Part shown: in pieces, positions 1 to 16,632 of the stretch | How positions within the stretch are numbered: position 1 is the stretch's first letter | How the letters are laid out: the number at the start of each line of letters is the position of its first letter | IMG/VR virus record: IMGVR_UViG_3300013010_000063 | Location: 1-25,085 of that record | Reading direction: 5' to 3' (one strand) | Source of the DNA: a virus | Length of the DNA stretch: 25,085 bases | Notes under the pieces: generated by a model | Database searches by the model: none | The model's input: the letters and a program-made list of their open reading frames with translations, nothing else | Told to the model about the DNA's origin: nothing | Position numbers and translations under genes: made by a program

Positions 1-60
1 ATGGTCTTCTGAACATTTTATAATAGTTTCGCCTTTTTTCATAGTAACATTTTTAGCCAT
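1..60 (-). CDS. Partial CDS, unidentified neck/tail gene (5' end only)
   Basis: An ATG at 60 reads 20 codons without a stop to the window edge; it begins M-A-K-N-V-T-M-K-K-G. It shares one base with the TAA of the preceding gene (a TAATG junction) and has a strong GAGGGAG Shine-Dalgarno sequence just upstream, so the start looks real. It follows a tail-terminator-like gene, where siphoviruses usually place the tail tube protein, but 20 residues are too few to identify it. Confidence 0.6.
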   Translation of the reverse strand, partial: MAKNVTMKKGETIIKCSEDH

Positions 61-3583: not shown

Positions 3584-5364
3584 TTTAACACCTCATCTTC
3601 TAAAAATTGAATAAATTTTGGGTCTACAAGTTGTTCTTTACCCATATGATATAAGCTAAAATTTTCTGCAAACCATTCTTGAACGTCTTGAGTTGAATAC
3701 CTTGTTGCACCCTTTTTGTAATACATACCCTCATCAAAAACTTTATTAGTTAATTTTTCTTCTATTGGTGGTTGTTCATATAATGGAATACGTTTAGGTC
3801 TATTTTTTAATTGATGTACTGTATGTGCAAATTCGTGATAAAGAACATTTCTAAATTTATCAAATTCATCATCAAAATAATAAAAAGCATTATGTGGTCT
3901 TACCCAAGTATCTGGTTTTTTCTTTCTTTCTTTAGTTACACTATCTCCAATTTTAAACTTTTTCCCCAAGTCGGCTTCTCTTTGATAGTAACCTTTACCA
4001 GTAAAAGCATTTCTAAATACTTCTGTGTCTCTATCCACATTGTTTTTATTAAAATACTTTGGGTTTATTTTTAAATTCCCATCACCCATTGACATTAATG
4101 CTCTACCCTTTGCAGTAACAGTAATAGACCTTAATTTTGGAACATTATATAATTCTGCTAATTCATCTAATTCTTGCATAACTGCATTTAATTGACTTGC
4201 TATTTCATTTTCTAGTTTTTCAACCCCAGTAACCTTACCAACATTTGTTTCATTAAATCTTGAATTTCCTACTGGTGGGTATCTATCATCTTTTGCATTT
4301 CTAGTAATTTGTTTTTGTAATTGGCTTGATATTAAACCACTATCCACAAAATTAAGTTCTTGAGAAGTTAAGGGGTTTTTTAATGATGACCTTTGACCTC
4401 TTCTTATTAACTCTGGTTCACTTTCCTCAACTACTGGTTCATCTGGCACTTCATCTACTGTTTCTTCACCCCATGCAGGGTCTGTGGGTATCCAAGTATG
4501 TCTACATCTATAACCACCCCTGACAATAAAAGGGTCTCCAGTTGACTTTCCCTGCCATGACCTAGTGTTCCACATATCCCTAATTTGTTCTTCTGTAAGT
4601 GTCTTATTCAGCATATTCACACAGAATTCACGACTATCTCTTACTAATGTACCAGTATATGTAAAATGATTTAATCCTGCTTCTTTTGCTTTTGCTACTG
4701 TAAACTGCCCATGAAACTGCATAACACTGTCGTGAGCAATCTGACTGGCATAACGTCTTAGATTGTTTCCTGCCCTATCACTCGCATATTGAGTGTGCAA
4801 TTTCCTTACTGCATCTTCTACTTGTGCTTTTTTTGCACTATCAAATTTATTCTCGTTAACAAAATCAACTAATTCATTTATCTCACGAGTATTTGAGGAT
4901 TTATAAACTCCATTGATATGTGATTTGATATTACTAACCATATCGTTAAATGGTCTACCTGCTATTGTACTTTGGTAAACCTCATCATTAATCACCTTTA
5001 GAAATCGTTCTGCTATATCTTCAAAGCCACTAAATGACTGGGTTTTCAAGGCATTGATGGTTGCTAAATCTACATCTGTTAGGTTTTTAAACTTTGCAGG
5101 AATTGGCATTTTCCCAAAAGTATCTAATGTTTCTTTTGCTATTTTATTATAATCATCATTAATTATTAGATCAGCTTCATTCAAAAATGTGGATTCAATT
5201 ATGGTTCTTAGTCTGGGTTGTAACTGGATAGCTAATCTTTGAGAAACTAAGTTACCTTTTGTGGCTCTGGTAATTTCATTAACTACATCATTTTCTAACT
5301 TATATAATACGTTTATTATACGTTCTTCATGCTGATCGGCTAATTTTTCTAAAATTCTTGACAT
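3580..5364 (-). CDS. MuF-type minor head protein fused to a C-terminal zincin metallopeptidase domain
   Basis: In this 594-aa protein, residues 1-300 look like the Mu gpF / SPP1 gp7 head-morphogenesis domain. That part has a helical N-terminus, TYTGTLVRDSREFC (235-248), and the family's closing GGYRCRHTW motif (283-291). An acidic Pro/Glu linker follows (300-322). Residues 350-594 form a second domain with YHEFAHTVHQL (509-519), an HExxH zinc site (H510, E511, H514), and EWFAENF (563-569), whose E563 or E567 could be the third zinc ligand. MuF proteins are few-copy head proteins, and some carry C-terminal effector domains. The fused peptidase may be packaged in the virion and injected, or act in assembly; which is unknown. 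Confidence 0.85.
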   Translation of the reverse strand: MSRILEKLADQHEERIINVLYKLENDVVNEITRATKGNLVSQRLAIQLQPRLRTIIESTFLNEADLIINDDYNKIAKETLDTFGKMPIPAKFKNLTDVDLATINALKTQSFSGFEDIAERFLKVINDEVYQSTIAGRPFNDMVSNIKSHINGVYKSSNTREINELVDFVNENKFDSAKKAQVEDAVRKLHTQYASDRAGNNLRRYASQIAHDSVMQFHGQFTVAKAKEAGLNHFTYTGTLVRDSREFCVNMLNKTLTEEQIRDMWNTRSWQGKSTGDPFIVRGGYRCRHTWIPTDPAWGEETVDEVPDEPVVEESEPELIRRGQRSSLKNPLTSQELNFVDSGLISSQLQKQITRNAKDDRYPPVGNSRFNETNVGKVTGVEKLENEIASQLNAVMQELDELAELYNVPKLRSITVTAKGRALMSMGDGNLKINPKYFNKNNVDRDTEVFRNAFTGKGYYQREADLGKKFKIGDSVTKERKKKPDTWVRPHNAFYYFDDEFDKFRNVLYHEFAHTVHQLKNRPKRIPLYEQPPIEEKLTNKVFDEGMYYKKGATRYSTQDVQEWFAENFSLYHMGKEQLVDPKFIQFLEDEVLK

Positions 5365-9827: not shown

Positions 9828-10025
9828 TTAATCTCCGTATAAAACACTTTTGACAAGTGGACTCATTTTATGTTCTAATTTTTTTCGCATTTCTTCTAAA
9901 TCACTAATTGCATCATTAAGACAATCTAATTGTGTAACTTCTGGCATTTCTTTAAATGCAGATTGTGGTTTTGCTACTGCTTGTTCTGATGTTTCTTGAT
10001 AGTTTATAGAAATTATTTTAATCAT
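9828..10025 (-). CDS. Hypothetical small protein
   Basis: This 65-aa protein starts MIKIISINYQETSEQAVAKP; residues 30-57 (EVTQLDCLNDAISDLEEMRKKLEHKM) look like an amphipathic helix or short coiled coil. It starts at ATG 10025 in an ATGA overlap with the DUF1376-like replication gene and has a strong GGGGAG site six bases upstream; the TTG two codons earlier is less likely. Coupling suggests it works with the replication protein, as a loader or accessory factor might, but there is no direct evidence. Confidence 0.72.
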   Translation of the reverse strand: MIKIISINYQETSEQAVAKPQSAFKEMPEVTQLDCLNDAISDLEEMRKKLEHKMSPLVKSVLYGD

Positions 10026-10903
10026 ATCCAACTCCCCATATCTAAATAAATTACTGCTTCTTCTCTACTAAATACACCCTCATTAATGGCTCTTTGAACG
10101 TCATAGGGGTGTTGTTTTGCATATTTGTGTACAAAGGCACTACCCTTTTTGTTATCAACTGCTTCTTTAAAAACTTTTAACCTCATAGAATATTGATCTG
10201 TTTTGAGTTCTTCTTTTTTAGTTGGTTTTTCATCTTCATACTTTTTAGCTGATAACCAGAAAGCAGGTTGTTTAGCAAATTGTTTATCCTCAACAGAATT
10301 ATAATATTTATTATACATATCTGCTAGTTCTTCTGGTTTTTCTATCCACTCTTGCTCTAGCTTGACAAAGTTCTTTTCAGCTATGCCCTTACTCACTTTA
10401 TTGGAAACCTTATTCCAGAACTTATGAAAAAAGGGATTATAACTTATTTTAGTGGTTTTAGTAGTGGTAGGGGTAGTGGTAGGGGTAGGAGGGGTTTCAT
10501 CTAGGTTAGCGTTAGGTTTTACTCTAGGTTCTATGCTAGGTTTTTTTGGTCTACCACCTAACTTGCCATTTTCCTTAGATGCTTCCATTCTTCTTGTAAT
10601 AAATAGATACTCTTGTAACTGTCTTTCATTCTGGAAATGTTCACCAACTTGGATAAAAAATTGTTCTAAAATTTTATGACAACTTTCTTTTTCACTTTCT
10701 GTAAAACAACTGGCTATCCTATAGTATTTAGTATTGTCGCATGGTATTCCAGAACATCTTTTGTTCCAGTTATAACAAAGCAATCTAATATATATGCCTA
10801 TTTCCTCATTTGTTAAGGCTTGAGTACCTGCAATGAAATCTTCTGTGAAAAGATACCATGCTTTTAATTTTTCTCTAGGTTTTGAATTTTCGTCTATAAA
10901 CAT
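10022..10903 (-). CDS. DUF1376-like replication-initiation protein (lambda O / DnaT-like role), putative
   Basis: In this 293-aa protein, residues 14-105 match the DUF1376 pattern: AWYLFTEDFIAGTQALTNEE, then GIYIRLLCYNWNKRCSGIPC, then a stretch ending in LEQFF. ASKENGKLGGRPKK (119-132) follows, a linker seen after this domain in phage replication proteins. Next come a Pro/Thr low-complexity spacer (TPPTPTTTPTTTKTT) and a C-terminal helical domain with FHKFWNKV and QPAFWLSAKKYEDE. DUF1376 proteins often stand where lambda O or DnaT-like helicase loaders do. The role is inferred from domain and position in an operon with SSB and an exonuclease. It has the GGAGATCA-type ribosome site. Confidence 0.75.
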   Translation of the reverse strand: MFIDENSKPREKLKAWYLFTEDFIAGTQALTNEEIGIYIRLLCYNWNKRCSGIPCDNTKYYRIASCFTESEKESCHKILEQFFIQVGEHFQNERQLQEYLFITRRMEASKENGKLGGRPKKPSIEPRVKPNANLDETPPTPTTTPTTTKTTKISYNPFFHKFWNKVSNKVSKGIAEKNFVKLEQEWIEKPEELADMYNKYYNSVEDKQFAKQPAFWLSAKKYEDEKPTKKEELKTDQYSMRLKVFKEAVDNKKGSAFVHKYAKQHPYDVQRAINEGVFSREEAVIYLDMGSWI

Positions 10904-10937
10904 TTTTGATCTCCAAATCTATTTAGTTTATTGTAAC

Positions 10938-13872: not shown

Positions 13873-14178
13873 TTATTTATTTATTACATTATAGCCACGA
13901 CCCTCAAGACATCTATTAACAAAGTCTGTGCGAGTATTTAACTTTGGACTTAACCATAAAACTTTCCATCTAAGGTTATTATAAATGGTTTTACCTATAT
14001 CCCAACCTGCATTGGTTTGATCTTCAACTAGGCTTTTACAAGTAAAATAGTCATCATGGAATCTGTTCATATCGCCTTTGATATTTGCAGATGATTTTCC
14101 CCTGCTATCTACTATTGGCATTGTAGAACACCCCCCTATAGATACTAGAACGAAAATTATTGAAATTGTTTTATACAT
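13873..14178 (-). CDS. Small lipoprotein of unknown function
   Basis: This 101-aa protein starts MYKTISIIFVLVSIGGCSTM: a lysine, a hydrophobic core and a lipobox-like I-G-G-C17, followed by Ser-Thr, so it is probably lipid-modified at C17. The mature part has TCKSLVEDQTNAGWDIGKTI, WLSPKLNTRTDFVNRCLEGRGYNVINK, with two more cysteines. It is not an Rz1-type spanin, since it is not nested in an Rz gene. Early-operon phage lipoproteins often alter the host envelope or block superinfection; that is inference. The frame can open at 14196, but ATG 14178 has the recurrent GGAGATCA site. Confidence 0.75.
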   Translation of the reverse strand: MYKTISIIFVLVSIGGCSTMPIVDSRGKSSANIKGDMNRFHDDYFTCKSLVEDQTNAGWDIGKTIYNNLRWKVLWLSPKLNTRTDFVNRCLEGRGYNVINK

Positions 14179-14197
14179 TTTTGATCTCCAAATCATT

Positions 14198-14231: not shown

Positions 14232-14711
14232 TTATTTAGTGTAATAACCATTAACAGTTCTTATAGCTTTTTTAACTTCTCTTTGTTCCCAATAAGAATA
14301 TCTGGTATCTCCAATATCGTTAACTACACCTTTTTGCATAGTCATAATGTGTCTGGGTATACAAACTATAATATTATCTAAATGTGTAAGTTGATCTAAT
14401 TTAGTTCTTTCTTTAGAACCAAACTTTACTAAAGAAATATATTTCCACCCATTATCTAATAAATATTTGTGATAAATTTCTTTATAAATTCCATTTCTAG
14501 GTGATAAACCATTAGACCTGCTTTTCATTTGTCTAGCTATTTTAGTTTTTTTAGTTTCACTATATAGCTTATTGCGAATAAAAAACTGGTCATAAATAGT
14601 CATATAATCTTCACCAGTAGCTATAGCGATTGCTCTAGTAACACAATCACCAGTTTCACCTTTAAAATATTTTGACCTACCACCATCATTAAATTTATAT
14701 TTTAGTTCCAT
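14232..14711 (-). CDS. Papain-like cysteine protease (putative)
   Basis: In this 159-aa protein, residues 16-40 read FKGETGDCVTRAIAIATGED-YMTIY, the Cys box of phage papain-like peptidases (G-D-C-V-x-R-A; C23 the nucleophile). The second half has LDNIIVCIPRHIMTMQKGVV-NDIGDTR, with H121 as the catalytic His and N131/D132 or D135 as the third residue, matching the H-x-M/A-x-x-x-x-G-x-x-x-D-x-x-D-T pattern. The order Cys...His...Asp/Asn is right for clan CA. Its target is unknown; placement in the early operon suggests a host protein or an early takeover role rather than capsid maturation. It has a GGAGATCAG ribosome site. Confidence 0.72.
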   Translation of the reverse strand: MELKYKFNDGGRSKYFKGETGDCVTRAIAIATGEDYMTIYDQFFIRNKLYSETKKTKIARQMKSRSNGLSPRNGIYKEIYHKYLLDNGWKYISLVKFGSKERTKLDQLTHLDNIIVCIPRHIMTMQKGVVNDIGDTRYSYWEQREVKKAIRTVNGYYTK

Positions 14712-14720
14712 TCTGATCTC

Positions 14721-14813
14721 CTACAAAAAAAACATTAATAAACAGAAACCTATAGTTCCAAAAACCATAAATTCCAAAAGATAAACACCATAATTTTTTA
14801 GAAAATTAATCAT
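14721..14813 (-). CDS. 30-aa single-TM microprotein
   Basis: A short frame runs from ATG 14813 to TAG 14721: MINFLKNYGVYLLEFMVFGT-IGFCLLMFFL. The last 20 residues form one continuous hydrophobic segment. The ATG shares a base with the stop of the upstream gene (TAATG, as at many other junctions here), and its TAG merges into the ribosome site of the protease gene, so the frame is well packed in the operon. Probably a small inner-membrane peptide; function unknown. Confidence 0.6.
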   Translation of the reverse strand: MINFLKNYGVYLLEFMVFGTIGFCLLMFFL

Positions 14814-15243: not shown

Positions 15244-15421
15244 TAGTTTGCTCCTTTAATCTAGTAAATAGCTTTGAGCCAAAACCAATATAATGATCTA
15301 TTGCACAAGTTTCTTCACCATCTCGGTGCATTGAAGTAGCTTTAGTTGTTAAATGCTCTCCAAAGCTATCTAATGCTTCATAAACGTATTTTAATTCTTC
15401 TTTTGAAAGTTCTATTTTCAT
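15236..15421 (-). CDS. Hypothetical small early protein
   Basis: This 61-aa, helix-rich acidic protein starts MKIELSKEELKYVYEALDSF and contains TSMHRDGEETCAIDHYIGFG. The pattern EL-x-x-V-x-x-AL-x-x-F resembles small phage helical proteins that regulate or bind host factors, but the match is too loose for a call. The start overlaps the previous stop as TAATG. Confidence 0.72.
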   Translation of the reverse strand: MKIELSKEELKYVYEALDSFGEHLTTKATSMHRDGEETCAIDHYIGFGSKLFTRLKEQTNE

Positions 15422-16005
15422 TAGTTTACCCCCTTAATCTTAGTTAAATGTGTTTCATAAATAATATTATCTTCATCACCAACATTCTTATGTGCTTTTA
15501 TTTCAGCAGTACAATAAACAGTATCGCCAACATTTAACGTCCACATAAATTTAGATTGGCTAAAAGAAATAAATACATTGTGATCTGCATCAATAAATTT
15601 AGTGCAAAGCGACCTACCAAAACGACCATCAAAAGTAAAACTATCGGTAACACCTAATGTAAGTTTTTTTGTTTCGCCTACATTGGCAACCTTTTCACTT
15701 AAAGGATATTCTATTTCTGGCTTTGTGGTTTCTTGAACTATTGGCTCTACTTTTTTATCAGCAGTTCCATCTCTAGTTATTTCTTCTAATTCCCATTTGT
15801 GAGGAATATGTAACTTTGAATTTGTATCTTTGTGGGTTTCATAAAGACACTTAGCAACTATAACTGCTTTATCATAATCTGTAGAGAGATTAGTAATGTG
15901 AATGGTTTTTTCATACATTCCATAAGATGAATACTCGTCAAACGTATGGTAAAGGCAAAACATCTTATTATCACGACCACTATTTATTGTGTAAATGCTT
16001 TTCAT
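15421..16005 (-). CDS. First gene of leftward early operon; C-terminal OB-like domain
   Basis: In this 194-aa protein, residues 1-75 hold an unrecognised N-terminal part (GRDNKMFCLYHTFDEYSSYG, KAVIVAKCLYETHKD). A Pro/Glu/Lys linker follows (85-105), then TLGVTDSFTFDGRFGRSLCT-KFID...NVFISFSQ and LNVGDTVYCTAEIKAHKNVG...YETHLTKIKG (115-192). The last part resembles the OB-like domain found at the ends of phage and plasmid DNA-metabolism proteins (G-x-x-Y-x-x-x-G-x-V-K-x-H-x-x-x-x-x-x-x-T-x-L-x-R). ATG 16005 is preferred to an upstream TTG because GGAGATCA lies just before it. It sits directly under the leftward promoter and operator, so it should be among the first proteins made. Confidence 0.75.
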   Translation of the reverse strand: MKSIYTINSGRDNKMFCLYHTFDEYSSYGMYEKTIHITNLSTDYDKAVIVAKCLYETHKDTNSKLHIPHKWELEEITRDGTADKKVEPIVQETTKPEIEYPLSEKVANVGETKKLTLGVTDSFTFDGRFGRSLCTKFIDADHNVFISFSQSKFMWTLNVGDTVYCTAEIKAHKNVGDEDNIIYETHLTKIKGVN

Positions 16006-16043
16006 ATTGATCTCCAATTATTATTATTATTTATTTATTAATT

Positions 16044-16065
16044 AACCTAGCTTAAACTCTAGGTT
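16044..16065. promoter_or_regulatory. Operator-like inverted repeat over the leftward promoter
   Basis: AACCTAG (16044-16050) and CTAGGTT (16059-16065) are perfect 7-bp inverted arms around 8 bases, 22 bp in all, with arm centres 15 bp apart. The repeat overlaps the -10 and the spacer of the leftward promoter. Its 9-mer CTAGGTTTA recurs at 16255-16263, just before the rightward gene. This is a likely repressor or activator site. Confidence 0.65.
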
Positions 16066-16077
16066 TATATATGTCAA
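16049..16077 (-). promoter_or_regulatory. Leftward early promoter (sigma70 type)
   Basis: Minus strand: perfect TTGACA (16077-16072), 17-base spacer, TAAGCT (16054-16049), which keeps T1, A2 and T6 of the -10. The start would fall near 16042, 37 bases before the ATG at 16005. A weak -10 beside a perfect -35, with an operator-like repeat on top, suggests a regulated promoter for the whole 16005-9330 operon. Confidence 0.72.
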
Positions 16078-16132
16078 GCCCTAAATGCATTTTTTTTAAT
16101 TATTTTCAAACTATTGTTTTATTTGGGTTTAT

Positions 16133-16163
16133 TTGATACTATCTGATAGAAAGTAATTATACT
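16133..16163 (+). promoter_or_regulatory. Possible rightward promoter with 11-bp palindrome
   Basis: TTGATA (16133-16138) and TATACT (16158-16163) are -35/-10-like but 19 bases apart, longer than ideal; an alternative pair (TTGTTT near 16114 and TACTAT near 16137) has a 17-base spacer. Between them CTATC-T-GATAG (16139-16149) is a perfect odd palindrome. A rightward promoter must exist in 16080-16255 for the nuclease gene, but which pair is used is uncertain. Confidence 0.35.
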
Positions 16164-16185
16164 CTGATCTCCAATCGTAGTATAA

Positions 16186-16271
16186 ATAAGGGGTAAAGAT
16201 TATTTCTTCGAGGTACTTAAATAAATCGCAGTATTTATATGAAGTGAAACAGAACTAGGTTTACCCCTTAT
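16186..16271 (+). ncRNA. Structured 5' leader of the VRR-NUC gene (12-bp closing stem over the start codon)
   Basis: ATAAGGGGTAAA (16186-16197) and TTTACCCCTTAT (16260-16271) are a perfect 12-bp inverted repeat enclosing 62 bases; the right arm covers the AT of the ATG at 16270. Inside, ATAAAT-CGCAGT-ATTTAT forms a 6-bp hairpin with a 6-base loop, and flanking ACTT/AAGT can extend it. Pairing would hide the start codon, so this looks like a translational switch or attenuating leader. It does not resemble a tRNA or a riboswitch class I know. Confidence 0.55.
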
Positions 16272-16632
16272 GACTAAAGAATCAGAAATTCAAATAGCGT
16301 GTAATCAGCTACTAAATATCTTAGCCAATACCTACTATTTCAGACATTTTCATGTTCCAAATGAGGGTAAAAGGTCTATTTATCTTCATGCTAAAATGAA
16401 AAAAATGGGTTTGAAATCTGGCTGTCCAGATATAATTGTTGAATATCCTATGGGTAAAATTCTTTATATCGAACTTAAAAACGAAAAGGGTAGATTATCC
16501 GATAATCAAAAGTTGTGGGCAGTACAATCTAAAGGACTAGGTACACCTCATTTTGTAGTCAAGGGGGGTCTGACCGAATGTTTAGATCAAGTAAAACAAA
16601 TCATTGAAACTAACATTCCTATGAGGTGTTGA
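16270..16632 (+). CDS. VRR-NUC (PD-(D/E)XK) nuclease, the only rightward gene
   Basis: This 120-aa protein is a complete stand-alone VRR-NUC domain. It has E6 in the first helix (KESEIQIACNQLL), HVPNEGKRS (28-36), KKMGLKSGCPDIIV (44-57) with catalytic D54, YIELKNEKGRLS (66-77) with E68-x-K70, and Q80 in SDNQKLWAVQ. Such enzymes resolve or trim DNA structures, and phages often carry them as single-domain Holliday-junction-type nucleases. It is transcribed away from the early operon, from the far side of the divergent control region. It has only a weak AGG site, and its start is buried in a stem. It converges on the 51-aa gene with a 9-base gap. Confidence 0.9.
   Translation: MTKESEIQIACNQLLNILANTYYFRHFHVPNEGKRSIYLHAKMKKMGLKSGCPDIIVEYPMGKILYIELKNEKGRLSDNQKLWAVQSKGLGTPHFVVKGGLTECLDQVKQIIETNIPMRC

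Follow-up and report, generated by a model that had tools for sequence, protein, structure and literature searches.

A probable trans-acting antisense hairpin joined to a start-covered nuclease message in a pelagiphage-like virus

Organization of the divergent region

The viral IMG/VR record IMGVR_UViG_3300013010_000063 (25,085 bases, analysed as a whole and called the window here) has a divergent region in which two adjacent hairpins, HP1 and HP2, precede a gene for a VRR-NUC nuclease. The open reading frame (ORF) at 16270-16632 is the sole rightward ORF of the window with a family match found, and the other recognised genes are leftward. Its single-domain product is probably of the Holliday-junction resolvase type, an activity known for relatives of VRR-NUC proteins of this kind (PMC4103454). 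A preliminary description, made from the window sequence alone, had supposed a nuclease toxic to the host or to the phage itself; nothing was found to show toxicity, and such VRR-NUC proteins are Holliday-junction resolvases (PMC4103454). The rightward features are as follows.

16114-16142, plus strand: putative rightward promoter TTGTTT-17-TACTAT, read from sequence, with the RNA start near 16149
16157-16185, plus strand: HP1, presumed antisense hairpin, loop CTCCA (16169-16173), stem covarying between lineages
16165-16174, plus strand: TGATCTCCAA, segment of HP1 with complementarity to ribosome-binding sites (RBSs) of leftward genes
16186-16197, plus strand: HP2 5' arm ATAAGGGGTAAA, exact complement of the 3' arm and kept in relatives
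16260-16271, plus strand: HP2 3' arm TTTACCCCTTAT, covering the spacer and the first two bases of the ATG
16270-16632, plus strand: VRR-NUC protein of 120 amino acids (aa), probable Holliday-junction resolvase type (Pfam PF08774, E=1.2e-7, above cut-off; PHROG 5702 Holliday junction resolvase, E=4e-11)

The window terminase is 56-58% identical to those of pelagiphages HTVC026P, 111P, 112P and 202P, which makes a SAR11-type host plausible for this phage. Those four isolates do not carry a VRR-NUC gene of the window type, no close DNA relatives of the window were found among deposited phages, and no relatives of the VRR-NUC gene were found in GTDB genomes. Comparison relied on 80 relatives at 76-100% aa identity to the VRR-NUC protein, plus later sets, which together gave 96 distinct leaders.

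HP1 and its matches in the window

HP1 was overlooked in the preliminary description and is the more telling of the two hairpins. It lies directly upstream of HP2, and its loop reads CUCCA in RNA. The window contains the segment TGATCTCCAA four times, always on the plus strand and against 0.04 expected: once in HP1 and once at the RBS of each leftward gene that starts at 16005, 14178 or 10903. A fourth RBS, that of the leftward gene starting at 14711, pairs with HP1 over 10 nucleotides (nt). Predicted HP1 duplexes range from -17 to -22 kcal/mol at these targets, compared with -6 to -12.5 kcal/mol at other tested starts.

16008-16017, minus strand: target site 1, RBS TTGGAGATCA of leftward gene 15421-16005, duplex -17.3 kcal/mol
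14712-14721, minus strand: target site 2, RBS GGAGATCAGA of leftward gene 14232-14711, duplex -18.2 kcal/mol
14182-14191, minus strand: target site 3, RBS TTGGAGATCA of leftward lipoprotein-like gene 13873-14178, duplex -22.2 kcal/mol
10907-10916, minus strand: target site 4, RBS TTGGAGATCA of leftward DUF1376/DnaD-like replication gene 10022-10903, duplex -16.9 kcal/mol

The lipoprotein-like gene 13873-14178 (minus strand; GGCSTMPIVDSRGKSSANIKGDMN) had no PHROG match. It is common to these phages and is consistently among the matching genes.

The HP1 stem is diverse and remains paired, with examples such as GCAC..GUGC, UAGCCUA..UAGGCUA and AUAGUA..UACUAU; among the 20 lineages listed there were 18 distinct stems, with complementarity kept. 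RNAalifold gave no consensus on the HP1 alignment because bulges shift the register, and stem conservation was assessed by arm-swap tests in its place. Native HP1 arms folded at -7.6 kcal/mol and swapped arms at -4.0 kcal/mol, a difference reached in 0 of 20000 permutations. The HP1 loop is predicted to be unpaired in most lineages. Ahead of the hairpins, many relatives have a TTGTnA/TTGATA-16..18-TAnnnT element, which scored 8.4 compared with 7.5 in shuffles, a modest gain.

A further hairpin with a C/U-rich loop, HP0 (for example TTCC-TCCTACGATAAGC-GGAA), lies about 30-45 nt upstream of HP1 in L053, L027, L034, L070 and others. It precedes HP1 in many lineages and is absent in the L044/L158 group.

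Co-variation of HP1 and its target sites across phages

Ahead of CUCC, HP1 has a triplet that varies by phage (GAU, GAA, AUG, AUA or AUU), and 2-5 RBSs of the same phage vary with it, carrying the match after GGAG. Counted as unique RBS sequences, from contigs that are related and partly redundant, the Shine-Dalgarno (SD) triplet AUC after GGAG was found at 25 of 121 sites in phages with a GAU-type HP1 and at 0 of 271 sites in GAA phages. The reverse held for UUC, present at 85 of 271 sites in GAA phages versus 3 of 121 in GAU phages. The remaining types also had their matching triplets, with CAU at 15 of 56 sites for AUG, UAU at 7 of 18 for AUA and AAU at 3 of 9 for AUU. Orthologous genes located 1-5 kb from HP1 switch their SD triplet along with it: the lipoprotein-like gene has ATC (4), TTC (15) or CAT (2), the DUF1376 gene ATC (3) or TTC (11), and the MYYN gene CAT (5) or TTC (2). 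No switching with HP1 type was seen at the portal and terminase RBSs. On the VRR-NUC tree HP1 type changes about 9 times, in some cases between close relatives (ATA in L206/L202 versus GAA in L205/L210).

In a set of 40 loci, each 7 kb or longer, the 9-mer of a phage's own HP1 recurred 73 further times on the HP1 strand, versus 1.8 expected, with 69 of these recurrences beside a leftward ATG; the opposite strand had 1. When the whole leader was scanned, complementarity specific to the phage's own RBSs was maximal at HP1 in all 18 lineages (-3.9 kcal/mol) and near zero in most other segments. Two other segments were considered as additional antisense elements and set aside, namely the HP2 3' arm, which had a weak signal of about -0.7 kcal/mol and no clear own-phage specificity, and the HP0 loop, for which no clear own-phage RBS specificity was seen. 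Duplex energy was -13.3 with RBSs of the same phage, -13.3 with those of phages sharing its HP1 type, and -10.1 with those of phages of other types. Additionally, TT precedes GGAG in 70 matching sites, a position where the 16S tail would favour AA.

The first leftward gene beside the promoter varies from phage to phage, as at an exchange hot spot, and usually has an RBS that matches the local HP1.

HP2 covers the start of the nuclease gene

The preliminary description had drawn attention to HP2 as a 12-bp perfect stem that hides the start of the only rightward gene. Its arms at 16186-16197 and 16260-16271 are indeed exactly complementary with 62 nt between them, and the right arm includes the A and T of the nuclease ATG at 16270. 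That gene is the only rightward one with a family match found. The loop had also been said to hold its own hairpin; what it holds is a module of about 50 nt (16204-16254) whose folding is weak. The predicted fold of the window's leader (z = -2.0) places both hairpins next to each other, HP1 abutting HP2 (16185/16186).

The window has no perfect 12-bp inverted repeat other than HP2 when loops are limited to 100 nt. Repeats of this kind occurred at least once in 18 of 60 dinucleotide-shuffled windows, and in 6 of 60 when four or more G/C were required in the repeat. Since shuffling produces them this often, the window sequence alone cannot prove that HP2 is functional or exceeds chance; HP2 goes beyond chance because it is conserved with compensation in relatives. 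In nearly all of the 96 distinct leaders a run of G forms one arm and a run of C, ending at the start codon, forms the other (AGGGGGUAA…UUACCCCCU-AUG), in hairpins of about 25 to 80 nt. Two-sided changes that preserve pairing include GGGGUAAA/UUUACCCC, GGGGUCUGU/ACAGACCC and GGGGGG/CCCCCU-GUG, and in L023-L025 and L175-L190 the ATG has shifted into the HP2 loop and remains within the structure. Native arms gave -17.2 kcal/mol and arms swapped between lineages -14.3 kcal/mol (0 of 20000 permutations), and the 8 nt ahead of the start codon were predicted to be 99% paired, compared with 51% in shuffled leaders. The preliminary description had held that loss of pairing in related phages without compensation would count against the stem. 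As HP2 is conserved with compensatory changes, and its arms pair in nearly all of the 96 distinct leaders, this is not what the relatives present.

Hairpins that occlude a start codon exist in other leaders, including RNA thermometers and phage translational operators. HP2 resembles these in having a stem over the initiation region, and is itself G/C-rich, up to 12 bp long and variable in its loop. With a conserved stem predicted to sequester the start region, it has the form of a translational start-codon switch. The earlier suggestion of such a switch is thus partly supported, while nothing was found to suggest that the gate responds to heat, to a ligand or to a protein. No match to a known riboswitch, ribozyme or RNA family was obtained in Rfam at the gathering score (one chance miRNA match had E=0.43), and a known riboswitch or ribozyme was dropped as a candidate for want of such a match. 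An intrinsic terminator after HP2 was rejected, as the sequence has no T-run.

A model for the leader and its alternatives

What the sequences, as aligned and folded here, show directly is the two hairpins, the covariation within them, and the matching changes in HP1 and its target sites. The model that we consider probable is that the leader acts as a trans-acting antisense RNA against translation of leftward genes and is joined to a nuclease message that closes itself. Under this model, transcription from the putative promoter near 16114-16142 would give the divergent region a rightward transcript with two jobs. HP1 would present its CUCCA loop with phage-specific flanks and pair over about 9-11 nt with the SD regions of 2-5 of that phage's leftward mRNAs, including those of the first gene of the leftward operon, the lipoprotein-like gene and the DnaD-like replication gene. 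This pairing would block ribosome binding and so create a small regulon repressed in trans. HP2 would sequester the start of the VRR-NUC message, and the nuclease would be poorly translated unless HP2 were opened.

Several caveats weigh against this model. RNA production and repression are inferred from sequence, and the promoter is a weak consensus match; in the window itself the promoter scorer preferred another site. The GTT lineage (SD GGAGAAA) matches at only 2 of 3 bases, some lipoprotein-like genes of the AUG lineage have drifted to CAA, CTA or CGA, and some first genes have no matching site (L013, L020). Since CUCC resembles the 16S anti-SD, its four core bases pair with many SDs, and specificity lies in the flanks alone. 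The permutation tests also take no account of shared ancestry.

The direction of control might be reversed, with leftward early mRNAs pairing with HP1, remodelling the leader and opening or closing HP2, so that nuclease translation would sense early transcription. The abutment of HP1 and HP2 suits this proposal and the pairing data would be identical, but the sites lie exactly on the SDs of several genes, as if those genes were regulated, and no predicted coupling was found between HP1 opening and HP2 melting. We regard this direction as unlikely.

It is also quite unlikely, in our view, that the shared motif GAnCTCCAAT works as double-stranded DNA, as an operator for a phage regulator that binds both the rightward promoter and the starts of leftward genes and whose specificity co-evolves with its sites. 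A sequence-specific protein would likewise couple changes in HP1 to changes at distant sites, and the region has promoter-like elements and an AACCTAG dyad. However, an operator in DNA leaves unexplained why HP1 is always a hairpin, with stems that vary freely and stay complementary, why all the sites are placed exactly on SD sequences inside operons, and why their orientation is so biased (1 versus 73).

That HP2 alone matters, as a start-occluding thermosensor, riboswitch or translational repressor site with HP1 serving as a 5' stabilising hairpin, would fit the strong conservation of HP2 and of its loop module, which is far more conserved than its surroundings, but is highly improbable: it leaves the joint variation of HP1 and RBSs unexplained, no Rfam match was obtained, and nothing was found pointing to a ligand or protein.

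Comparison with known antisense RNAs

The closest functional parallel to the proposed antisense leader is the c4 antisense RNA of phages P1 and P7, a 77-nt RNA that acts on ant (Citron and Schuster 1990, as reviewed in PMC12197685). In both cases loops of a phage RNA are complementary to sequence around RBSs of the same phage, and related phages have different, matching specificities, which in P1/P7 amounts to heteroimmunity. Unlike c4, HP1 belongs to the predicted 5' leader of an mRNA for a nuclease and would have several targets including a replication gene. A loop complementary to phage RBSs and RNA-target co-variation make HP1 a candidate for the functional class of trans-acting phage antisense RNAs (c4/sar); the likeness to c4 is one of function, of which homology and a temperate life style form no part, and the Rfam search gave no homology to the c4 RNA family. 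The sar RNA of P22 (PMC12197685) is another small RNA made by a phage that stops one of the phage's own genes from initiating translation, but it has one target, ant, and belongs to another phage group with other target genes. RNAIII of Staphylococcus aureus (PMC2837412) is, like the proposed leader, both mRNA and regulator, with C-rich hairpin loops acting on the SD regions of several mRNAs. It differs in being a bacterial quorum-sensing RNA whose coding part is delta-hemolysin, where here it is a junction nuclease, and there is no sequence relation.

Antisense control by phage RNAs is known so far from few model phages. In the present case natural variation amounts to a compensatory-mutation experiment, in which an RNA and several distant targets change together with at least 5 specificities in marine phages that are abundant and for the most part uncultured. 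This points to a simple means by which early-gene output could be coupled to the nuclease and to replication, and perhaps to superinfection compatibility. The open-access papers searched contained no description of an element of this kind in pelagiphages, and a pelagiphage RNA-seq study covering HTVC022P and HTVC027P (PMC12753301) does not mention antisense or small RNA in its text.

A broader and more doubtful possibility is that leader hairpins of this sort form a family in pelagiphage-like viruses, with loop specificity setting compatibility groups, as with plasmid antisense RNAs. In each phage the leader of the nuclease mRNA would then hold back that phage's early genes and replication genes, and during co-infection it would also repress phages sharing its loop type while sparing others. 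If so, hairpins of HTVC111P and HTVC202P that match RBSs of divergent genes would be further members.

Strong hairpins with C/U-rich loops occur in the divergent region of cultured HTVC202P (L212, 4011-4046, plus strand), HTVC111P (L104, about 4007-4040, plus strand) and HTVC026P (L105, leftward leader of gp03), with folded leader segments of -20 to -26 kcal/mol. In HTVC111P loop complementarity of at least 7 nt was found for 5 of 9 SD-bearing minus-strand ORFs versus 0 of 17 plus-strand ORFs, and in HTVC202P the hairpin loop ATTCTCTC matches AGGAGAGAAT RBSs.

Other features of the region

Two further features were noted.

16204-16254, plus strand: loop module A (TTCTTCGAGGTACTTAAATAAATCGCAGTATTTATATGAAGTGAAACAGAA), which near-identical phages may have or lack
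16044-16077, minus strand: putative leftward promoter TTGACA-17-TAAGCT, read from sequence, with the dyad AACCTAG-N8-CTAGGTT over the spacer and -10

Module A occupies the HP2 loop in the window and in the diverged phages L020, L027, L088, L090 and L092, is also seen in L022, and is missing from the near-identical L011 and L013. Its 23-nt core was found in 21 IMG/VR stretches, each time inside the HP2 loop of a VRR-NUC gene, and is almost invariant. The module may be a small exchangeable RNA piece. The core was absent from GTDB genomes, and an att site or a host-derived insert was rejected on that ground.

Promoters for a single-subunit phage RNA polymerase (GGGGTAAA boxes facing each other) were also considered and rejected, because GGGGTAA in the window is also an ordinary SD and relatives keep the pairing alone. 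The dyad AACCTAG..CTAGGTT (16044-16065) is kept at the same place in relatives and is operator-like.
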